Source: Bacillota bacterium
Lineage (GTDB): Bacteria; Bacillota; Dehalobacteriia; UBA4068
NCBI GenBank assembly: GCA_024679955.1
Contig: JAILCQ010000041.1
Coordinates: 1 to 64,000 of the forward strand
DNA length: 64,000 nt
Direction: 5' to 3'
Numbering within the stretch: position 1 is the first letter of the stretch; every line of letters starts with the position of its first letter. Below the pieces are notes generated by a model. It worked only from the letters and a program-made list of their open reading frames with translations, had not been told where the DNA came from and did not search any database. Below, piece after piece: positions 11,822 to 30,802 of this stretch. The translations under genes and the position numbers were made by a program.

Positions 11822-13018
11822 ATGACTAGAATAACCGGTACCTGTGCCAGAGGTTTGCGTCTGCCGGTGATCCGGCAAGGCGACGATTTGGTGCAAATGA
11901 CGGCGGACGCCGTAGCCGCCGTTACGGAACGGGAAGGGGTACGGCTGCACGATCGGGACGTACTGGCGGTCACCGAAGCGGTAGTCGCCAGGGTGCAGGG
12001 CAATTACGCCACCGTGGATCATATCGCCGAAGACGTACGCGCCAAATTCCCGCAAGGAGAAATCGGCGTGGTCTTTCCCATACTCAGCCGCAACCGTTTT
12101 GCCATCGTCTTGCGGGGCGTCGCCCGGGGCGTAAAAAAGATATATTTGCAGCTGAGTTATCCCAGAGACGAGGTGGGCAATGCCTTGATCTCCGAAGAAG
12201 ACGTGTATGCCGCCGGTTTGAATCCCTATCGGGACGCGCTGACGGAAGCCCGGTACCGGGAAATGTTCGGTTACCCCAAACACCGTTTTACCGGTGTGGA
12301 TTATGTGGCCTACTATCGCCAGCTGATCGAAGAGGAAGGCTGCGAATGCCAAATCCTACTGTCCAATGATCCGCAGGAGATCTTAAAATACACGCCTTAT
12401 GTTCTGGCGGCGGATATCCATAACCGCCGGCATACCCAAACGGTTCTGCGCGCCCAGGGGGCCGCTTTCGTCTGCGGTTTGGACGGATTGATGAACCGTT
12501 CCATCGACGGCTGCGGCTATAACGCCCAATACGGTTTGCTGGGCTCCAATAAAGCGGATGAGCATACCGTCAAACTGTTCCCCAGGGATTGCGACCGCTT
12601 TGTCGCCGATTTGCAGCAGGCCATATACCGGCGCTGCGGCGTCAAGCTGGAAACCATGATATACGGCGACGGGGCTTTTAAAGATCCGGTGGGAAAAATT
12701 TGGGAATTGGCGGATCCGGTGGTTTGTCCGGCCCATACCGACGGCCTTGCGGGCACGCCCAACGAGCTGAAGCTGAAATATTTGGCGGATAATGATTTTG
12801 CCGCCCTGCGCGGGGATTCCCTGACCCTGGCCATCAAAGACAGGATCAAACAAAAACAGGAAAATCTGTATGGCAATATGGCCTCCCAGGGTACCACGCC
12901 CCGGCAGATCACCGATTTGTTGGGCTCTTTATGCGATCTGGTCAGCGGCAGCGGCGACAAAGGCACGCCGGTGGTGCTGATACAGGGCTATTTCGACAAT
13001 TACGCCACCGAGGATTAG
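11822..13018 (+). CDS. Coenzyme F420-0:L-glutamate ligase-like (CofE family) protein
   Basis: ITGTCARGLRLPVIRQGDDLVQM...DRDVLAVTEAVVARVQGNY..., GCGYNAQYGLLGSNKA, YGDGAFKDPVGKIWELADPVV. Confidence 0.75.
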   Translation: MTRITGTCARGLRLPVIRQGDDLVQMTADAVAAVTEREGVRLHDRDVLAVTEAVVARVQGNYATVDHIAEDVRAKFPQGEIGVVFPILSRNRFAIVLRGVARGVKKIYLQLSYPRDEVGNALISEEDVYAAGLNPYRDALTEARYREMFGYPKHRFTGVDYVAYYRQLIEEEGCECQILLSNDPQEILKYTPYVLAADIHNRRHTQTVLRAQGAAFVCGLDGLMNRSIDGCGYNAQYGLLGSNKADEHTVKLFPRDCDRFVADLQQAIYRRCGVKLETMIYGDGAFKDPVGKIWELADPVVCPAHTDGLAGTPNELKLKYLADNDFAALRGDSLTLAIKDRIKQKQENLYGNMASQGTTPRQITDLLGSLCDLVSGSGDKGTPVVLIQGYFDNYATED

Positions 13019-13150
13019 CCTCGGGGGCGATGGGTTTTACGCCGGGCGTCTTAGGGGCGGCTTACGCCGCCCGGCAAATCTTCTTGCAATGCCCTTCGTT
13101 TTGTTCTATAATAAATCATAACAGCAAATGGAATACAGCAAATTGAATAT

Positions 13151-13365: not shown

Positions 13366-13397
13366 CTCTCTTTCAGCAAACGAAAGAGAGTTTTTTT
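13366..13397 (+). terminator. Riboswitch-associated intrinsic terminator
   Basis: CTCTCTTTC-agcaaac-GAAAGAGAG followed by TTTTTTT, between riboswitch and cobU. Confidence 0.9.
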
Positions 13398-13497
13398 ATC
13401 GCTTTGTCCTATTTACGCCGCCCCGGCATAAAACGGCGGGGCCGTTTCCGCGCAGGCCTTTTCCCACCGATGCAGCGAAGACAGGAAAGGGTTGCGT

Positions 13498-14019
13498 ATG
13501 TTGATATTGATCAAAGGCGCCAATAGCAGCGGCAAAAGCCTGTATGCGGAAAAATTGGCTTCGCGTATCCGTCAAGGCGATTTATATTATGTGGCAACGA
13601 TGAACCCCTATGGCGAGGAGGGGCAGGCCAGGATCGCCAAACACCGGAAGCAGCGCCAGGGTCTGGGCTTTCGTACCGTGGAAAAGCTTTATGATATCGA
13701 TCAGATCGCCGTTACGCCGGACAGCCTGGTTTTGCTGGAGGATGTTTCCAATCTTTTGGCCAATATTCTTTTTCGTGAGCAGCCGGGGGATTGGCAAAAT
13801 GCCTTTGGGGAGATCATGGCCCTGTCGGAAAAATGCCGGCATTTCATTGTCGTGACGATTGACGAATTGAGCGAAGAAGGTTTTTCCGGCGAAACCAAGG
13901 GCTATATTCAGGATTTGAACCGATTGAACCGCCGCCTGCAGGATTGTGCGGCTATGGTGGTGCAGATGAAAAACGGCGAACCTTGTATCATAAAAGGAGA
14001 TAGGAATGAGATTTCTTGA
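13498..14019 (+). CDS. cobU: Adenosylcobinamide kinase/adenosylcobinamide-phosphate guanylyltransferase (CobU family)
   Basis: MLILIKGANSSGKSLYAEKLA (P-loop), RIAKHRKQRQGLGFRTVE (retains His), LLEDVSNLLANILF. Confidence 0.83.
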   Translation: MLILIKGANSSGKSLYAEKLASRIRQGDLYYVATMNPYGEEGQARIAKHRKQRQGLGFRTVEKLYDIDQIAVTPDSLVLLEDVSNLLANILFREQPGDWQNAFGEIMALSEKCRHFIVVTIDELSEEGFSGETKGYIQDLNRLNRRLQDCAAMVVQMKNGEPCIIKGDRNEIS

Positions 14020-14776
14020 ACCGTTTTGCATAGCCTTAACGACCTATTCCGTATTGCCTGCGCCGCAAGTGACCTGGAATGAACGGAATATGTGTATTTC
14101 CATATGTTATTTACCTTTGATCGGCGTTATCGCCGGCGCCGTGCAATGGTTGTGGTTTTGGCTGTGCCAGGCTTTGCAGGCCGGCCCGGTTTTATTCGCG
14201 GCGGTAGCCGCGGTATTGCCGGTGCTGATCACCGGCGGCATTCATATGGACGGATACCTGGATACGGTGGACGCCATATCCTCGCATCAAACCAAAGAGC
14301 GCAAGCTGGAGATCCTGAAAGACTCCCATTGCGGCGCTTTTGCCATCATCTATGCCGGCGTATATTTTTTGCTGCTTTTCGGCTTTTTTTCACAGATTTT
14401 CTCCTGGCGTCCGGCGGCCATTGTCGCCTGCGGCTATGTATTGAGCCGTTCCTTGGCGGTGATTTTGGCGGCGACCACGCCCAACGCCCGCAAAAACGGC
14501 ATGTTGGCCGCTTTTACCGGCGCCTTGGCCAAAAAAGTAGCTTTGCTGATTATGATCGTTCTCACTCTGGCGGTGACGGCGGGGATGGTCTGTATCTCCC
14601 TTTGGACAGGCCTTATTTGCGCCGCCGTGGCCGGTGTGTGGCTGCTCCTGTACCGCCGTCTGGCCATGGGCTTGTTCGGCGGCGCTACCGGCGACACCAC
14701 AGGGTTTTTTATTCAAGTTTGCGAATTGCTGCTTTGTATATCGGCTTCCCTGTGCAGTCTGGCCTTTCCCTGCTGA
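14006..14776 (+). CDS. cobS: Adenosylcobinamide-GDP ribazoletransferase (cobalamin synthase)
   Basis: TYSVLPAPQVTWNERNM, GGIHMDGYLDTVDAISSHQTKERKLEILKDSHCGAFA. Confidence 0.95.
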   Translation: MRFLEPFCIALTTYSVLPAPQVTWNERNMCISICYLPLIGVIAGAVQWLWFWLCQALQAGPVLFAAVAAVLPVLITGGIHMDGYLDTVDAISSHQTKERKLEILKDSHCGAFAIIYAGVYFLLLFGFFSQIFSWRPAAIVACGYVLSRSLAVILAATTPNARKNGMLAAFTGALAKKVALLIMIVLTLAVTAGMVCISLWTGLICAAVAGVWLLLYRRLAMGLFGGATGDTTGFFIQVCELLLCISASLCSLAFPC

Positions 14777-14823
14777 AAGCGTAGGGGAAAGCGGGAATGC
14801 GGCAAAGGGGAAAGGAGAATACT

Positions 14824-15402
14824 ATGGAGATCATTTTATTGCGCCACGGCGCTACCCAAGGCAATCTGGAAAAGCGTTATATCGGCCGCACCGACGAACC
14901 TTTGAGCATGGAAGGGGTTTTGCAGGCGCAGGCTTTGCTGAGCCAGCTGCCGTATCCCACCAGGATTTTTACCAGCCCCTATTTGCGCTGCCGGCAAACG
15001 GTAGAATTGGCTTTCGGCCGGCTGGATTATTATTGCGTTCAGGATCTGCGGGAATTCGATTTTGGCCGTTTTGAAGGTCATACCGCCGACGAGCTTGCCG
15101 GGGACGCGGAATACCGGCAATGGGTGGACGGGGATTGCCAGGGCCCTTGTCCGGGCGGCGACAACCAGGAGGCTTTCAGCCGCCGCTGCTGCGAGGCCTT
15201 TGCTTCCATCATCCAGCAATATGCCGATTGTCCCCGTATGGCTTTCGTTTTGCATGGCGGCAGTATTATGGCGATCATGGAACGCTTCGCCCGGCCGAAA
15301 CAAAGCTTTTACAGCTATCATTTGGGCAATTGCCAGTATTATATCTGCCGGGTCGAAACGGCAGACGGGCAAATATGCCTGACGCGGGAGGGAGAAGGGT
15401 AA
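14824..15402 (+). CDS. cobC: Histidine phosphatase family, alpha-ribazole phosphatase
   Basis: MEIILLRHGATQGNLEKRYIGRTDEPLS..., DFGRFEGHTADEL, FVLHGGSIMAIM; B12 operon context. Confidence 0.88.
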   Translation: MEIILLRHGATQGNLEKRYIGRTDEPLSMEGVLQAQALLSQLPYPTRIFTSPYLRCRQTVELAFGRLDYYCVQDLREFDFGRFEGHTADELAGDAEYRQWVDGDCQGPCPGGDNQEAFSRRCCEAFASIIQQYADCPRMAFVLHGGSIMAIMERFARPKQSFYSYHLGNCQYYICRVETADGQICLTREGEG

Positions 15403-16391
15403 TGCTGGGATACGCTTTGGCGGCGATCGTCATTGGTTTTGTCCTGGATTTGCTGCTGGGCGATCCACCCAATGCACCCCATGTGGTCCGTGCCATGGGC
15501 CGTATGATCGCCGCATTGGAAAAAAGCCTGCGTCCCCGCTTTCCCGCCAATCCCAAAGGGGAAGCGGCTGCCGGCAGAGCGCTGGCCGGGATCATGGCCG
15601 CCTTTTGGCTTTTGCTTCCCATTATCCTGCTGCATTTGCTGTATAGCCTGCATCCATGGCTGGGCATGGCGGCGGAAGCCTTGCTGTGCTGGCAGGTGCT
15701 GGCCATCAAAAGCCTGCGCCAAAGCAGCGAGAAGGTGTACCGGGATTTGCGGCAGGGCGATTTGCCCCAAGCCCGCCGGGATATATCCATGATCGTGGGG
15801 CGGGATACGGAAAACCTGCAGGCGGAAGGCGTGATCAAGGCCGCGGTGGAGACGGTGGCGGAAAATACCGCCGACGGGATCATCGCCCCCATGTTCTATT
15901 TGCTGCTGGGCGGCGCGCCTTTGGCCGTATTGTATAAAGCCGTCAATACCATGGATTCCATGTTGGGCTATAAAAACGAAAAGTATTTGTATTTCGGCCG
16001 GGCGGCAGCCAAATTGGACGATGCGGCCAATTTTTTGCCCTCCCGCCTGGCGGCGCTGCTGATGATCGCCGCGGCGGCTTTCAAAGGCTTGGACGCCTCT
16101 ATGGCGGCGAAGATTTGGCGGCGGGACCGTTTTAATCATGCCAGCCCCAACTCGGCGCAAACCGAGGCGGCGACCGCCGGCGCTTTGCATGTGCAATTGG
16201 CGGGCAATGCCTATTATTTCGGCCAGCTATATGAAAAGCCTACCATCGGCCCGGATCTGCGTCCCGTGGAGATCGAAGACATTCACCGCAGCCATGCTTT
16301 GATGGAAGGGGCATCCTGGTTTATGCTGCTGCTGACGGTTGCCGTAAGGCTATTGTTGACTATGGGATGGTGGTATTATGTTTCGCTATGA
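15402..16391 (+). CDS. cbiB: Adenosylcobinamide-phosphate synthase CbiB
   Basis: DLLLGDPPNAPHVVRAMGRMIAALEK, AVETVAENTADGIIAPMFY, KAVNTMDSMLGYKNEKYLYFG. Confidence 0.96.
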   Translation: MLGYALAAIVIGFVLDLLLGDPPNAPHVVRAMGRMIAALEKSLRPRFPANPKGEAAAGRALAGIMAAFWLLLPIILLHLLYSLHPWLGMAAEALLCWQVLAIKSLRQSSEKVYRDLRQGDLPQARRDISMIVGRDTENLQAEGVIKAAVETVAENTADGIIAPMFYLLLGGAPLAVLYKAVNTMDSMLGYKNEKYLYFGRAAAKLDDAANFLPSRLAALLMIAAAAFKGLDASMAAKIWRRDRFNHASPNSAQTEAATAGALHVQLAGNAYYFGQLYEKPTIGPDLRPVEIEDIHRSHALMEGASWFMLLLTVAVRLLLTMGWWYYVSL

Positions 16392-17424
16392 GCATGGCGG
16401 GAATATATACGGCCCGCAGGAAATTCGCCTGGATTATTCCGTGAATCTGAATCCCCTGGGTATGCCGGAGGCGGTGCGTAGGGCGATTGCGGAACATATT
16501 GACGAATACGCCCAATATCCCGACCCCTTTTGCCGCAAATTGACCCGGGCCTTGGCGGAGAAAGAAGAAACGCCCCAGGAGTGGCTTCTCTGCGGCAACG
16601 GCGCCGCCGATTTGATCATCCGTTTATGCTTCGCTTTGCAGTGTAAGCAGGCTTTGGTTTGCGCGCCGACTTTTTCCGAATACGCCAACGCGGTGCGCTT
16701 GGCCGGCGGCGCAGTGAAGGAATATCCGCTGCGGGAAGAAAAGGATTTCCGTTTGGACGAGGGGATACTCCGGTATTTGGACGGCGCTTTGGACACGGTC
16801 TTTTTGTGCAATCCCAACAATCCCAACGGCGCGCTGATCGACGGGGATCTGCTCCAGGCTATCGCCGCCAAATGCTTGCAAAATGATATATTCCTGATCG
16901 TAGACGAGTGCTTTTTGCCCTTTACCGGGGGATGCAGCGTCAAAGAATTGTTGCCCGGCAATCCGCGGCTGGTGATTTTGAACGCTTTTACCAAAATCTA
17001 TGCCATGGCGGGGCTGCGTCTGGGCTATATCGTAACGGCCAATGCCCAGATATTGGCAAAAACCGCCGCCTTTGGCCAAAGCTGGAGCGTTTCCGGGCCG
17101 GCCCAGGCCGCTGGATTGGCGGCCCTGCAGGTTCCGGACTGGCAAGAGCGCACCCGGCAAATCGTGGCAGAGGAAAAGGCTTTTATGGAGGAAGCGTTGA
17201 AGCAATTGCATATCCGCGTCTTCCCCAGCGACAGCAATTTTTTGTTGCTGCAGCATGAAAAACCGGTATATGATTTGCTGTTGTCCCGCGGGGTATTGAT
17301 CCGCGATTGCGGCAATTTTTCCGGTTTGACCCATGATTTTTTCCGTATCGGCTTGAAACGGCGGGAAGAGAATATGACTTTTTTAAGCCATTTGCAGGCC
17401 GTTTTGACGGCGTCCCGCCCGTAA
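16378..17424 (+). CDS. cobD: L-threonine-O-3-phosphate decarboxylase-type PLP aminotransferase (CobD)
   Basis: HGGNIYGPQEIRLDYSVNLNPLGMPEAVRRAI, CNPNNPNGALID, LNAFTKIYAMAGLRLGYIV. Confidence 0.9.
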   Translation: MFRYEHGGNIYGPQEIRLDYSVNLNPLGMPEAVRRAIAEHIDEYAQYPDPFCRKLTRALAEKEETPQEWLLCGNGAADLIIRLCFALQCKQALVCAPTFSEYANAVRLAGGAVKEYPLREEKDFRLDEGILRYLDGALDTVFLCNPNNPNGALIDGDLLQAIAAKCLQNDIFLIVDECFLPFTGGCSVKELLPGNPRLVILNAFTKIYAMAGLRLGYIVTANAQILAKTAAFGQSWSVSGPAQAAGLAALQVPDWQERTRQIVAEEKAFMEEALKQLHIRVFPSDSNFLLLQHEKPVYDLLLSRGVLIRDCGNFSGLTHDFFRIGLKRREENMTFLSHLQAVLTASRP

Positions 17425-17478: not shown

Positions 17479-18468
17479 ATGAGTACGATATTGTGTATTG
17501 TCGACGGCATGACCGACGCCGGTTTTCGTTGGCAAAACTATCCGGCGTTATCGGCGATGCAGCGGGGCGGTTTTTTTCCCACCACGCCCCAGAATATGCC
17601 GGCGGAAAGCTTGACCTGTATTTTGACTTTGTTGGGGGTACAGGAAATACCCTTGTATTTGCGCGCCTATGTGGAAGCTCTGGGTCTGGGGCTGGAAACG
17701 AAGGAAGATGATTTGATACTCCGCGGCACTTGGCTGGATTTGGACGAGGCTGGGGATTGCCGGGGCATGGGACAAGCGCCGGATCGTTTATTCGACTATC
17801 CGGATATGCGTTATTACGGCTTGGGTTCCTATAAAAGCATTCTGTTTTTTGCCGGCGCGGCGGCCTACGCAGAGCGGCTGACCACCTATCCGCCCTATGA
17901 TTGTTTGGGCAAGCCGGTCCGGCAAATGATGCCCCGGGGCTATGCGCCTCTGGCCGAAGTTTGCGAAAAAACCCGCAGCCTCTATCCGGGGACGGCGATG
18001 ATCCCCTGGGGACAGGCCAAAGCCGTGGCTATGGCGGCCTGGCCGGGAAGGGCGGCCGTGGTTTGCGGCACGGAAATCATGCGCGGCATCGCCCGGCTGC
18101 TGTCTATGGATTTGATCGTACCGCCGGGGGCCACCGGCGATACCGATACCGATCTGGCCGGGAAATTGCAGGCCGCTTTATCGGCTGCTGTTCGATATCC
18201 TTTGACGGTTTTGCATGTCAACGGCGGCGACGAAGCCGGACACCGGCAGGATCGCAAGGCCAAAGAAGCGTTTTTGACAGAGGTTGACCGGCAGATCCTG
18301 AGGCCGCTGCTGAACAGTCCTCATACGCTTTATGTGGCCTCCGATCACTCCACCGATCCGCGCAGCGGCAAACACGGCGGCGAACCCCAGCCCTGGTTTT
18401 ATGCCGCCGGGACCGATCCCAAAAAGACGCCCATAGCCGCCGCTGGTTTATTGTCGATGCGGCCGTAG
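17479..18468 (+). CDS. Alkaline-phosphatase-superfamily, ApgM-like (archaeal-type iPGM) protein in the B12 operon
   Basis: IVDGMTD, HVNGGDEAGHRQDRKAKEAFLTEVDRQIL, ASDHSTDPRSGKHGGEPQPWFYAAG; 54 bp after cobD. Confidence 0.78.
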   Translation: MSTILCIVDGMTDAGFRWQNYPALSAMQRGGFFPTTPQNMPAESLTCILTLLGVQEIPLYLRAYVEALGLGLETKEDDLILRGTWLDLDEAGDCRGMGQAPDRLFDYPDMRYYGLGSYKSILFFAGAAAYAERLTTYPPYDCLGKPVRQMMPRGYAPLAEVCEKTRSLYPGTAMIPWGQAKAVAMAAWPGRAAVVCGTEIMRGIARLLSMDLIVPPGATGDTDTDLAGKLQAALSAAVRYPLTVLHVNGGDEAGHRQDRKAKEAFLTEVDRQILRPLLNSPHTLYVASDHSTDPRSGKHGGEPQPWFYAAGTDPKKTPIAAAGLLSMRP

Positions 18469-18534
18469 CTGGGCATAAACCTGGCGCGCAGCCTATTCTC
18501 AAGATATTCCATCAAAAAAGTGAAATATATCCAT

Positions 18535-18562
18535 AAAAAGGCGGGTATCCATCCGCCTTTTT
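18535..18562. terminator. Terminator after the B12 operon
   Basis: AAAAAGGCGG-GTATCCAT-CCGCCTTTTT. Confidence 0.85.
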
Positions 18563-18620
18563 GTCATCTTTTTCCGCTATTGGCATACAATGGCCATATA
18601 CCGGCAAAGAGGTGAAAAGA

Positions 18621-19088
18621 ATGGGCAAAAAATGGCAAGAGGTCGCCATAGATGAACAACAGGACGGAGCTTTTTCCATACCGTTCCCCGGCGGGGAAAG
18701 CGGCAAGTATACGGATGAACAGGGGCAGGCGTTGACGGATACGGGCTATCTTTGCGTGCAGACCCATACCGCCAGAAAAACCTATCCGGTGCAAAACGCT
18801 TTGGTCACGCTAAAGAGAAAATTCGCCGGCGGCGAGGAGCTGCTGCAGACCTATTATACAGACAGCTTCGGCCAAACGCCGTTGATATCCCTACCCACGT
18901 TGGATCGGGCACAGTCCATGAACCCGGCGAACCTGCAGCCCTATATGATCTATTCGGTCAGCGTCGTGCACCCGGATTATCAGGAAATGCGGAACGTCGA
19001 TGTAAACGTGTTCGGCGGCGTCGTTTCCCTGCAGCAGTTCGATATGTTGCCCAACGCCCTGCGGGAAGGCAATGTGGATATCGGTTAA
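18621..19088 (+). CDS. Hypothetical protein, possible carboxypeptidase-regulatory-like fold, paired with the PG-binding protein
   Basis: ATG with AAAGAGGTG RBS; TYPVQNALVTLKRKFAGGEELLQTYYTDSFGQTPLISLPT; 15 bp upstream of the next CDS. Confidence 0.6.
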   Translation: MGKKWQEVAIDEQQDGAFSIPFPGGESGKYTDEQGQALTDTGYLCVQTHTARKTYPVQNALVTLKRKFAGGEELLQTYYTDSFGQTPLISLPTLDRAQSMNPANLQPYMIYSVSVVHPDYQEMRNVDVNVFGGVVSLQQFDMLPNALREGNVDIG

Positions 19089-19103
19089 GGGGAGGCGAGA
19101 GTT

Positions 19104-20522
19104 ATGCCGGATTATGGCGCCGATTTGCCGGTGGTGCCGGCTTATATCACAGTGCATTTGGGCGCGCCAGACGATGCGGAGGCCCAGAATGTACAGGTCA
19201 GCTTTACGGATTATATCAAAAACGTCGCTTCCAATGAAATCTATCCCACCTGGCCGGAAAGCGCCCTGATCGCCAATATTTTGGCCCAGATCTCTTTGGC
19301 GTTGAATCGCGTTTATCTGGAATGGTATCCCAGCCAGGGCTATGATTTCGACATCACCAACACCACCCAGTACGATCAGGTATTTGTCTACGGCAGCAAC
19401 ATTTATGAAAATATCAGCCAAATCGTAGACGAGATATTCGATCAGTATTTGGTAAAAGGCGAAGCCATCGAGCCCTTTTTTGCTCAATTCTGCAATGGTA
19501 CCACCAGCACTTGCGACGGCCTGCAGCAATGGGGCACCGTATCCCTGGCGGAGCAGGGCTATACCCCCATCGAGATTTTGCGCTATTATTACGGGGACGA
19601 CATCCAAATCGTCAACGACGCGCCCATCGACGAAGTGCTGGAATCCTATCCCGGTATTCCTTTGCGTCGTGGCTTCATAGACAACGCCGTAAAGTCTTTG
19701 CAGGTTCGCCTGAACGCCATCCGCAGCAATTATCCGGCTATCCCGGAGATCCCTCAGGTAAACGGCGTTTTCGATGCGGAAACGGAGGAGGCGGTTTTGG
19801 CCTTTCAGAAGGCTTTCGATTTGCCCCAAACCGGCGAAGTGGATAAAAGCACCTGGTATAGGGTCGTTTACGTATACAATGCGGTGCTGCGCTTGGGTGA
19901 ATTGACGTCTTTGGGCATCTTTTATAAAGACGTGGAACGGGTCACCCCCGTCCAATTGATGGAAGGGGATTGGGGCACTCCCGTTACCGTGGTGCAATAC
20001 TATTTGGACGTGTTGGGATATTTCAACCAAAACATCCCATTGATCGATATCGACGGTTATTTCGGCCCGGATACGCTGTCGGCGGTAAAGGCCTTTCAGC
20101 GCAGCTATGACCTGCCCATTGACGGCACCGTCGACAGAATGGATTGGGTGGTCATGTTCACCCTGTATCAGGATTTGATCAACAATCTGCCGCCGGGATA
20201 TAGCGGTAAAAAAGCCGAAGCCTATCCCGGTTATGCCATCACCCTGCGGGCGGAAGGGGAGGCGGTGGATAAGCTGCAAAGCTATCTGCAGTTGATCGCC
20301 GCCTATCGGGAAGATTTGCCGCCGTTCGAAGCCACCGGTGTGTTTGATCAGCAGACTTTGGCTCTGATCAACGCCCTGCGCCGGGAATGGGGCATAGACG
20401 AAGTGGATTATGTGGGACACTTGACTTGGTACCGGATCGGCCAATTGTACGACAGCTACGTGGAAGCGGTGGAAGACTGGGAAGAGATCGAGGATTTGGA
20501 GGATTATCAGCCTTATGAATGA
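19104..20522 (+). CDS. SpoIID-like plus repeated peptidoglycan-binding (PG_binding_1) domain protein, no signal peptide
   Basis: NEIYPTWPESALIANILAQISLALNRVY..., CDGLQQWGTVSLAEQGYTPIEILRYYYG; repeats VNGVFDAETEEAVLAFQKAF, IDGYFGPDTLSAVKAFQRSY, ATGVFDQQTLALINALRREW. Confidence 0.85.
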   Translation: MPDYGADLPVVPAYITVHLGAPDDAEAQNVQVSFTDYIKNVASNEIYPTWPESALIANILAQISLALNRVYLEWYPSQGYDFDITNTTQYDQVFVYGSNIYENISQIVDEIFDQYLVKGEAIEPFFAQFCNGTTSTCDGLQQWGTVSLAEQGYTPIEILRYYYGDDIQIVNDAPIDEVLESYPGIPLRRGFIDNAVKSLQVRLNAIRSNYPAIPEIPQVNGVFDAETEEAVLAFQKAFDLPQTGEVDKSTWYRVVYVYNAVLRLGELTSLGIFYKDVERVTPVQLMEGDWGTPVTVVQYYLDVLGYFNQNIPLIDIDGYFGPDTLSAVKAFQRSYDLPIDGTVDRMDWVVMFTLYQDLINNLPPGYSGKKAEAYPGYAITLRAEGEAVDKLQSYLQLIAAYREDLPPFEATGVFDQQTLALINALRREWGIDEVDYVGHLTWYRIGQLYDSYVEAVEDWEEIEDLEDYQPYE

Positions 20523-30487: not shown

Positions 30488-30563
30488 GGTGCGCCCAGCA
30501 GGACTCGAACCTGCGACCTTTTGGTTCGTAGCCAAACACTCTATCCAGCTGAGCTATGAGCGC
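30487..30563 (-). tRNA. tRNA-Arg (anticodon ACG)
   Basis: GCGCTCATAGCTCAGCTGGATAGAGTGTTTGGCTACGAACCAAA...TGGGCGCACCA. Confidence 0.93.
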
Positions 30564-30588
30564 ATTTGGCACAGCTTTATACTGTGCG

Positions 30589-30683
30589 TGGCGGAGAGCA
30601 AGGGATTCGAACCCTCGATACAGGTTTTGGCCCGTATACTCGCTTAGCAGGCGAGCGCCTTCGACCGACTCGGCCAACTCTCC
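30589..30683 (-). tRNA. tRNA-Ser (anticodon GCT)
   Basis: GGAGAGTTGGCCGAGTCGGTCGAAGGCGCTCGCCTGCTAAGCGAG... long variable arm ...GCTCTCCGCCA. Confidence 0.93.
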
Positions 30684-30712
30684 AGGCAAATTCTTTTTCA
30701 GGAAAGAAGTTT

Positions 30713-30802
30713 TGGCGGAGGAGGTGGGATTCGAACCCACGGAGCCCTCTCGGGCTCAACGGTTTTCAAGACCGTCACCTTAAACCGCTCGGACACCCCT
30801 CC
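30713..30802 (-). tRNA. tRNA-Ser (anticodon TGA)
   Basis: GGAGGGGTGTCCGAGCGGTTTAAGGTGACGGTCTTGAAAACCGT... long variable arm ...CTCCTCCGCCA. Confidence 0.93.

Follow-up and report, generated by a model that had tools for sequence, protein, structure and literature searches.

An ApgM-like protein of the CbiU family encoded behind cobD in a Bacillota B12 operon: a candidate source of L-threonine-O-3-phosphate

Introduction

What does the last gene of a B12 operon contribute when its product resembles a phosphoglycerate mutase and the gene stands directly behind cobD? In the established pathway, L-threonine-O-3-phosphate comes from PduX or BluE and is the substrate of CobD, a decarboxylase whose product CbiB then attaches (PMC6249242, PMC7242693). 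Many B12 producers are without an assigned source of phosphothreonine (PMC6461909, PMC8305020); a large B12 survey left out pduX because most verified producers lacked its annotation (PMC6461909), and EC 2.7.1.177 is a listed pathway gap in haloarchaea (PMC8305020). A first, sequence-only reading of the DNA considered here, a 64,000-nt stretch of a Bacillota genome (the window), had singled out such a gene as a candidate for the supply of threonine phosphate.

The idea of a threonine kinase of this type is not new. It was published in 2015 by Rupakula et al., who proposed Dehre_1608 of Dehalobacter restrictus, named cbiU, as an L-threonine kinase because of its resemblance to TIGR02535 and because no pduX was found (PMC4285132). 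Our literature search revealed no test of cbiU later than this proposal and no assay of any member of the clade described below. New here are the delimitation of a clade that is monophyletic, linked to cobD and spread over several Bacillota families, and that has a short form in the window's lineage, the residue-level criteria that set this clade apart from ApgM and TIGR02535, the genome-wide exclusion of housekeeping roles, and the counter-observation of B12 producers that do not carry a clade gene.

The operon and its last gene

The gene order cobU-cobS-cobC-cbiB-cobD is supported by Pfam and NCBIfam, and the 329-aa ORF is the last gene of the operon (Table 1). The cobalamin riboswitch at the head of the operon, the gap of 54 nt between cobD and the ORF and the terminator behind it agree with what had been read from the sequence alone. 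The window cobC and cobD have TIGR03162 (ribazole_cobC, 97.9 bits, under the cut-off of 162.9) and TIGR01140 (273 bits, slightly under the cut-off of 290.55), respectively, as their best NCBIfam matches. The promoter-like sequence in front of the riboswitch is only suggestive, because such matches are no commoner in this region than in shuffled sequences. A Shine-Dalgarno-like AAAGGCGG is located just 5' of the ATG of the ORF, within the gap that follows cobD, and B12 would be expected to control the expression of the ORF through the riboswitch at the 5' end of the operon.

Table 1. Coordinates of the operon features in the window
Feature	Position	Strand	Evidence or remark
Sigma-70-like promoter, TTGCAA-17-TATAAT	13084..13112	+	Consensus match 10/12, directly 5' of riboswitch
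Cobalamin riboswitch aptamer, RF00174	13123..13299	+	Rfam 53.1 bits vs gathering 31.5, full model 1-189
Hairpin then TTTTTTT, probable riboswitch-controlled terminator	13366..13390	+	
cobU-type cobinamide kinase/guanylyltransferase	13492..14019	+	PF02283 2.7e-23; ATG at 13498 is the likely start
cobS	14006..14776	+	PF02654 3.7e-46
cobC-type histidine phosphatase (alpha-ribazole phosphatase)	14797..15402	+	PF00300 6.8e-35
cbiB (adenosylcobinamide-phosphate synthase)	15399..16391	+	PF03186 1.1e-105; TIGR00380 above cut-off
cobD, single-domain threonine-phosphate decarboxylase	16378..17424	+	348 aa; TIGR01140 best match
CbiU-family ORF, candidate L-threonine-O-3-phosphate-forming enzyme	17479..18468	+	ATG start, 329 aa, ApgM-like short phosphotransferase
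Operon terminator	18533..18564	+	Strong 14-pair hairpin, then T-rich tail

An ortholog from the same genus shares 71% amino acid identity with the ORF product; dN is 0.21 against a dS of about 1.5 and the differences fall mostly at third codon positions, so the ORF is a real gene under selection. In the same comparison at the nucleotide level, purifying selection on the ORF was somewhat weaker than that on cobD and cbiB.

Directly 5' of the riboswitch, positions 11822-13018 encode a protein with a CofE-like F420 ligase domain (PF01996 5e-53, far under the TIGR01916 cut-off), and this synteny is kept in a genome of the same genus. Two conserved genes 3' of the operon (18615-20522) are syntenic in genome G011; one encodes a protein of 157 aa without an assignment, the other a protein of 472 aa whose repeats resemble peptidoglycan-binding modules. 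Three clustered tRNA genes lie on the minus strand at 30490-30802.

Protein family and catalytic residues

The assignment of the ORF product to the ApgM-like proteins of the alkaline phosphatase superfamily, made in the sequence-only reading, was borne out by two Pfam domains over their gathering thresholds, Metalloenzyme (1.2e-12) and PhosphMutase (6.1e-8). The best NCBIfam match, TIGR00306 (apgM), has a cut-off of 320 bits and gave only 125.7; TIGR02535 (proposed homoserine kinase), whose cut-off is 446.3 bits, gave 105.5. Neither family name therefore fits the ORF; Dehre_1608 scores 224.9 bits with TIGR02535. The GHMP kinase domain PF00288 was not found in the ORF by Pfam or NCBIfam, nor was the histidine phosphatase domain PF00300 by Pfam, the cobC of the operon being a separate gene. 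Among solved structures, archaeal phosphoglycerate mutases (PDB 2zkt, 3kd8, 3idd) come closest; an AlphaFold2 model built from a two-sequence input had a pLDDT of 31.

The metal-ligand-like motifs IVDGMTD, HVNGGDEAGH and SDHSTD, pointed out in the sequence-only reading, are all present in the ORF. All 17 clade members share D9, D251, H255, D289, H290 and H299, and at position 44 they have Ser (15 members) or Thr (two). From the alignment with ApgM proteins and from what is known of the superfamily, we take the six invariant residues to form an iPGM-type two-metal centre and Ser44 to be the phosphorylated nucleophile. The two proteins with Thr at this presumed nucleophile position are encoded at L066:7698-8645 and L071:4666-5739. 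Clade-specific residues cluster in HINGxDEAxHRxD and SGKH, which lie beside the metal ligands in the sequence, and none of the 17 members carries the DRRAGR motif that is seen in 2zkt and in PRK04024-type mutases.

These data bear on the most obvious reading of the protein, a glycolytic phosphoglycerate mutase. The window protein shares its sequence family and catalytic residues with ApgM (TIGR00306, PRK04024), which also provides its best NCBIfam match and best solved structure. Nevertheless, its score is low, DRRAGR and about 80 residues are missing, the gene belongs to a riboswitch-led B12 operon, and the window genome has a 526-aa GpmI, a true iPGM, of its own. On account of GpmI, the missing motif and the low score we reject the mutase role, which we consider scarcely credible.

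A clade linked to cobD

The analysis of gene neighbourhoods recommended by the sequence-only reading showed that cob genes accompany the relatives of the ORF, most of which stand immediately behind cobD. Four close orthologs from the same taxonomic order (39-71% identity) all belong to cob operons that also contain cbiB and cobD, and a search of genome contigs for related loci gave one close relative only. A profile search of a 398-genome sample of the phylum separated eight genomes, at 426-483 bits, from all other homologs, at 183 bits or less; further members came from a search of the class around genome G211. The resulting set of 17 members from several Bacillota families lies entirely inside B12 operons. 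In 16 of them the same operon has cobD upstream at a distance of three genes or fewer, mostly as the immediate neighbour and in some cases with an overlap; the remaining member (G136) adjoins cbiC in a cbi operon. By comparison, none of 22 background homologs of 400-430 aa with readable flanks stood beside cobD, and two stood beside Hom. Given the contrast between 16/17 clade members and 0/22 background loci, we reject chance adjacency to cobD.

In a tree of 27 rows the clade, with Dehre_1608 included, had a support of 100/100, and in a tree of 49 sequences its SH-aLRT value was 100. A long branch of 2.1-2.3 changes per column set all B12-linked proteins apart from the ApgM-type phosphoglycerate mutases. 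The exact places of the G260 and G136 proteins are unsure because both are long branches. The clade is thus a small, sharply separated family of metal-dependent phosphate-transfer enzymes linked to B12 operons, and its short form (306-344 aa) occurs in the window's lineage. Outside this clade, genome G346 carries a full-length 402-aa ApgM/TIGR02535-like gene (L189:7967-9175) with cbiP and cbiA as tightly packed neighbours on either side, which may represent an independent recruitment into B12 synthesis.

G211 carries its clade member near 1.619 Mb, in the same operon as cobD, and this protein is very probably Dehre_1608 itself. Like the window protein, Dehre_1608 belongs to the monophyletic clade and is encoded directly 3' of cobD in a riboswitch-led cob operon of a genome without pduX. 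The two proteins are only about 31% identical and differ in length (373 vs 329 aa), the N-terminal region and a central loop being shorter in the window protein, which comes from another lineage, an uncultured Peptococcaceae relative.

TIGR02535 is the sister family of the clade in the tree, and this raises the question of an alternative homoserine kinase. Proteins of this family, for example BT2402, share with the window protein the ApgM-type alkaline phosphatase superfamily, the same nucleophile and metal-ligand-like residues, and a presumed phosphorylation of an amino acid side-chain hydroxyl, but are about 400-430 aa long, carry a PGSD-type motif and are not linked to cobD (PMC7311316). 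TIGR02535 is genetically linked to threonine synthesis, homoserine phosphorylation being an analogous reaction; BT2402 is important for the growth of Bacteroides thetaiotaomicron without threonine, but complementation of an E. coli thrB mutant with it failed (PMC7311316). The window protein matches TIGR02535 far under the cut-off, the clade shows no linkage to threonine genes, and a GHMP-type ThrB is present in nearly all other clade genomes checked. Because ThrB adjoins Hom in the window genome, we reject a homoserine kinase role and regard it as very improbable.

The neighbours of the clade genes bear also on an alternative phosphatase of the nucleotide loop, which would act on alpha-ribazole-5'-phosphate or cobalamin-5'-phosphate and do the job of CobC. 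The alkaline phosphatase superfamily includes many phosphatases, and the gene does belong to a late B12 operon. On the other hand, the clade gene follows cobD, not cobS or cobC, and does so also in G389, where cobU, cobS and cobC are not found within 18 kb. A cobC-type phosphatase shares the operon in eight clade genomes (G000, G011, G005, G033, G211, G235, G282 and G260), and because of this the phosphatase role, already judged less needed at the first reading, is improbable.

Search for other possible sources of phosphothreonine

The window genome assembly is 95.7% complete. It carries DeoB in addition to GpmI, and only two GHMP kinases, IspE and the ThrB next to Hom; no third or PduX-like GHMP kinase was found in this 95.7% complete assembly in a search run without a PduX positive control. 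Another contig encodes cbiA, cbiC, cbiD, cbiF, cbiG, cbiH, a cbiE-containing fusion, cbiP and cobA, a complete-looking cbi operon that indicates de novo corrin synthesis. With its own GpmI, a ThrB beside Hom and this cbi operon, and with no PduX found, the genome has its housekeeping roles already filled, and both checks proposed earlier, for a glycolytic affiliation and for a pduX elsewhere in the genome, did not refute the proposal.

The situation is similar in other genomes. D. restrictus has ThrB and IspE as its only GHMP kinases. The extra GHMP kinases examined in other clade genomes (with a 1021-aa frame in G389 left out) are galactokinase-like, heptose-kinase-like or beta-RFAP-synthase-like, so no competing PduX-type enzyme was found in the clade genomes.

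The expectation that every cbiB-positive relative carries either a CbiU-type gene or PduX failed. No clade member is present in at least 13 genomes that belong to the same class and have CbiB, and nearly all of these have only one or two GHMP kinases; two cbiB-positive genomes, G006 and G026, were left aside, as their contigs end beside cobD or cbiP. As most cbiB-positive relatives in the class without the clade gene show no extra GHMP kinase, a dedicated kinase may be dispensable or another kinase may exist. Within the class the co-occurrence of the clade gene with cbiB is borderline (5/23 vs 0/20, Fisher p = 0.05). Among the individual loci, L097, L099-L106 and L108-L112 belong to cbiB relatives (cobD being visible in many) without a CbiU-type gene, and an extra GHMP kinase occurs in few of them.

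Discussion

A role of the window protein somewhere in B12 synthesis is nearly certain. The observed clade, operon and conserved residues, together with the absence of GHMP alternatives, suggest that this CbiU-family member probably supplies L-threonine-O-3-phosphate to CobD via phospho-Ser44. The clade gene sits where a supplier of phosphothreonine would be expected and its phosphotransfer centre is intact. Thus the proposal of the sequence-only reading gained support from the cob-gene co-occurrence and from the lack of a PduX-like GHMP kinase in the genome searched, and we infer the threonine kinase activity itself from the same features. The alkaline phosphatase superfamily is not known to include small-molecule kinases, and this counts against the kinase reading, as do the failed thrB complementation with BT2402 and the CbiB-positive genomes without a clade gene. 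In its favour are the genetic link of the sister family TIGR02535 to threonine synthesis (PMC7311316) and the independent proposal for Dehre_1608 (PMC4285132).

In the mechanism that we propose, D9, D251, H255, D289, H290 and H299 would hold a pair of metal ions that activate Ser44, which would accept a phosphoryl group from a donor that could be PEP, phosphoglycerate or a similar metabolite, or ATP; a PEP-like donor was suggested for TIGR02535 by the TIGRFam curators. The phosphoryl group would then pass to the hydroxyl of L-threonine, giving L-threonine-O-3-phosphate, which the neighbouring CobD would convert to (R)-1-amino-2-propanol O-2-phosphate, to be joined by CbiB to adenosylcobyric acid. 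The same product would be formed by the L-threonine kinases PduX and BluE (PMC6249242, PMC7242693), GHMP kinases to which no sequence relationship was found, and by the bifunctional CobD MM2060, as cited in PMC6461909; the CobD of the window has no extra domain.

A conserved phosphotransfer centre in a protein encoded next to cobD would suit any substrate of this branch. The protein could act on phosphothreonine or aminopropanol phosphate in some other manner, for instance as a phosphatase or a recycling enzyme keeping the substrate or product of CobD in balance, or as an aminopropanol kinase; this is unlikely but the most plausible of the alternatives. The pathway needs a source of phosphothreonine and no GHMP-type source was found elsewhere, and a phosphatase beside cobD would drain an intermediate. 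A B12-operon protein of another kind, with a function in regulation, metal handling or an unrecognised step, is conceivable in that the seven catalytic residues leave the substrate unfixed, but it is made quite improbable by the tight linkage to cobD and by a phosphotransfer centre that is strongly conserved throughout.

If L-threonine is indeed the acceptor, the clade may well constitute, and we incline cautiously to this wider view, a further and structurally unrelated type of L-threonine kinase, an alkaline-phosphatase-superfamily enzyme with a phosphoserine intermediate and perhaps a non-ATP donor, recruited beside cobD. It would then account for the phosphothreonine step in the Bacillota that carry it, among them the dechlorinating Dehalobacter, and it would mean that mutase-type enzymes can be recruited as amino acid kinases. 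The clade would thereby offer few and clearly delimited proteins on which to carry out a decisive assay.
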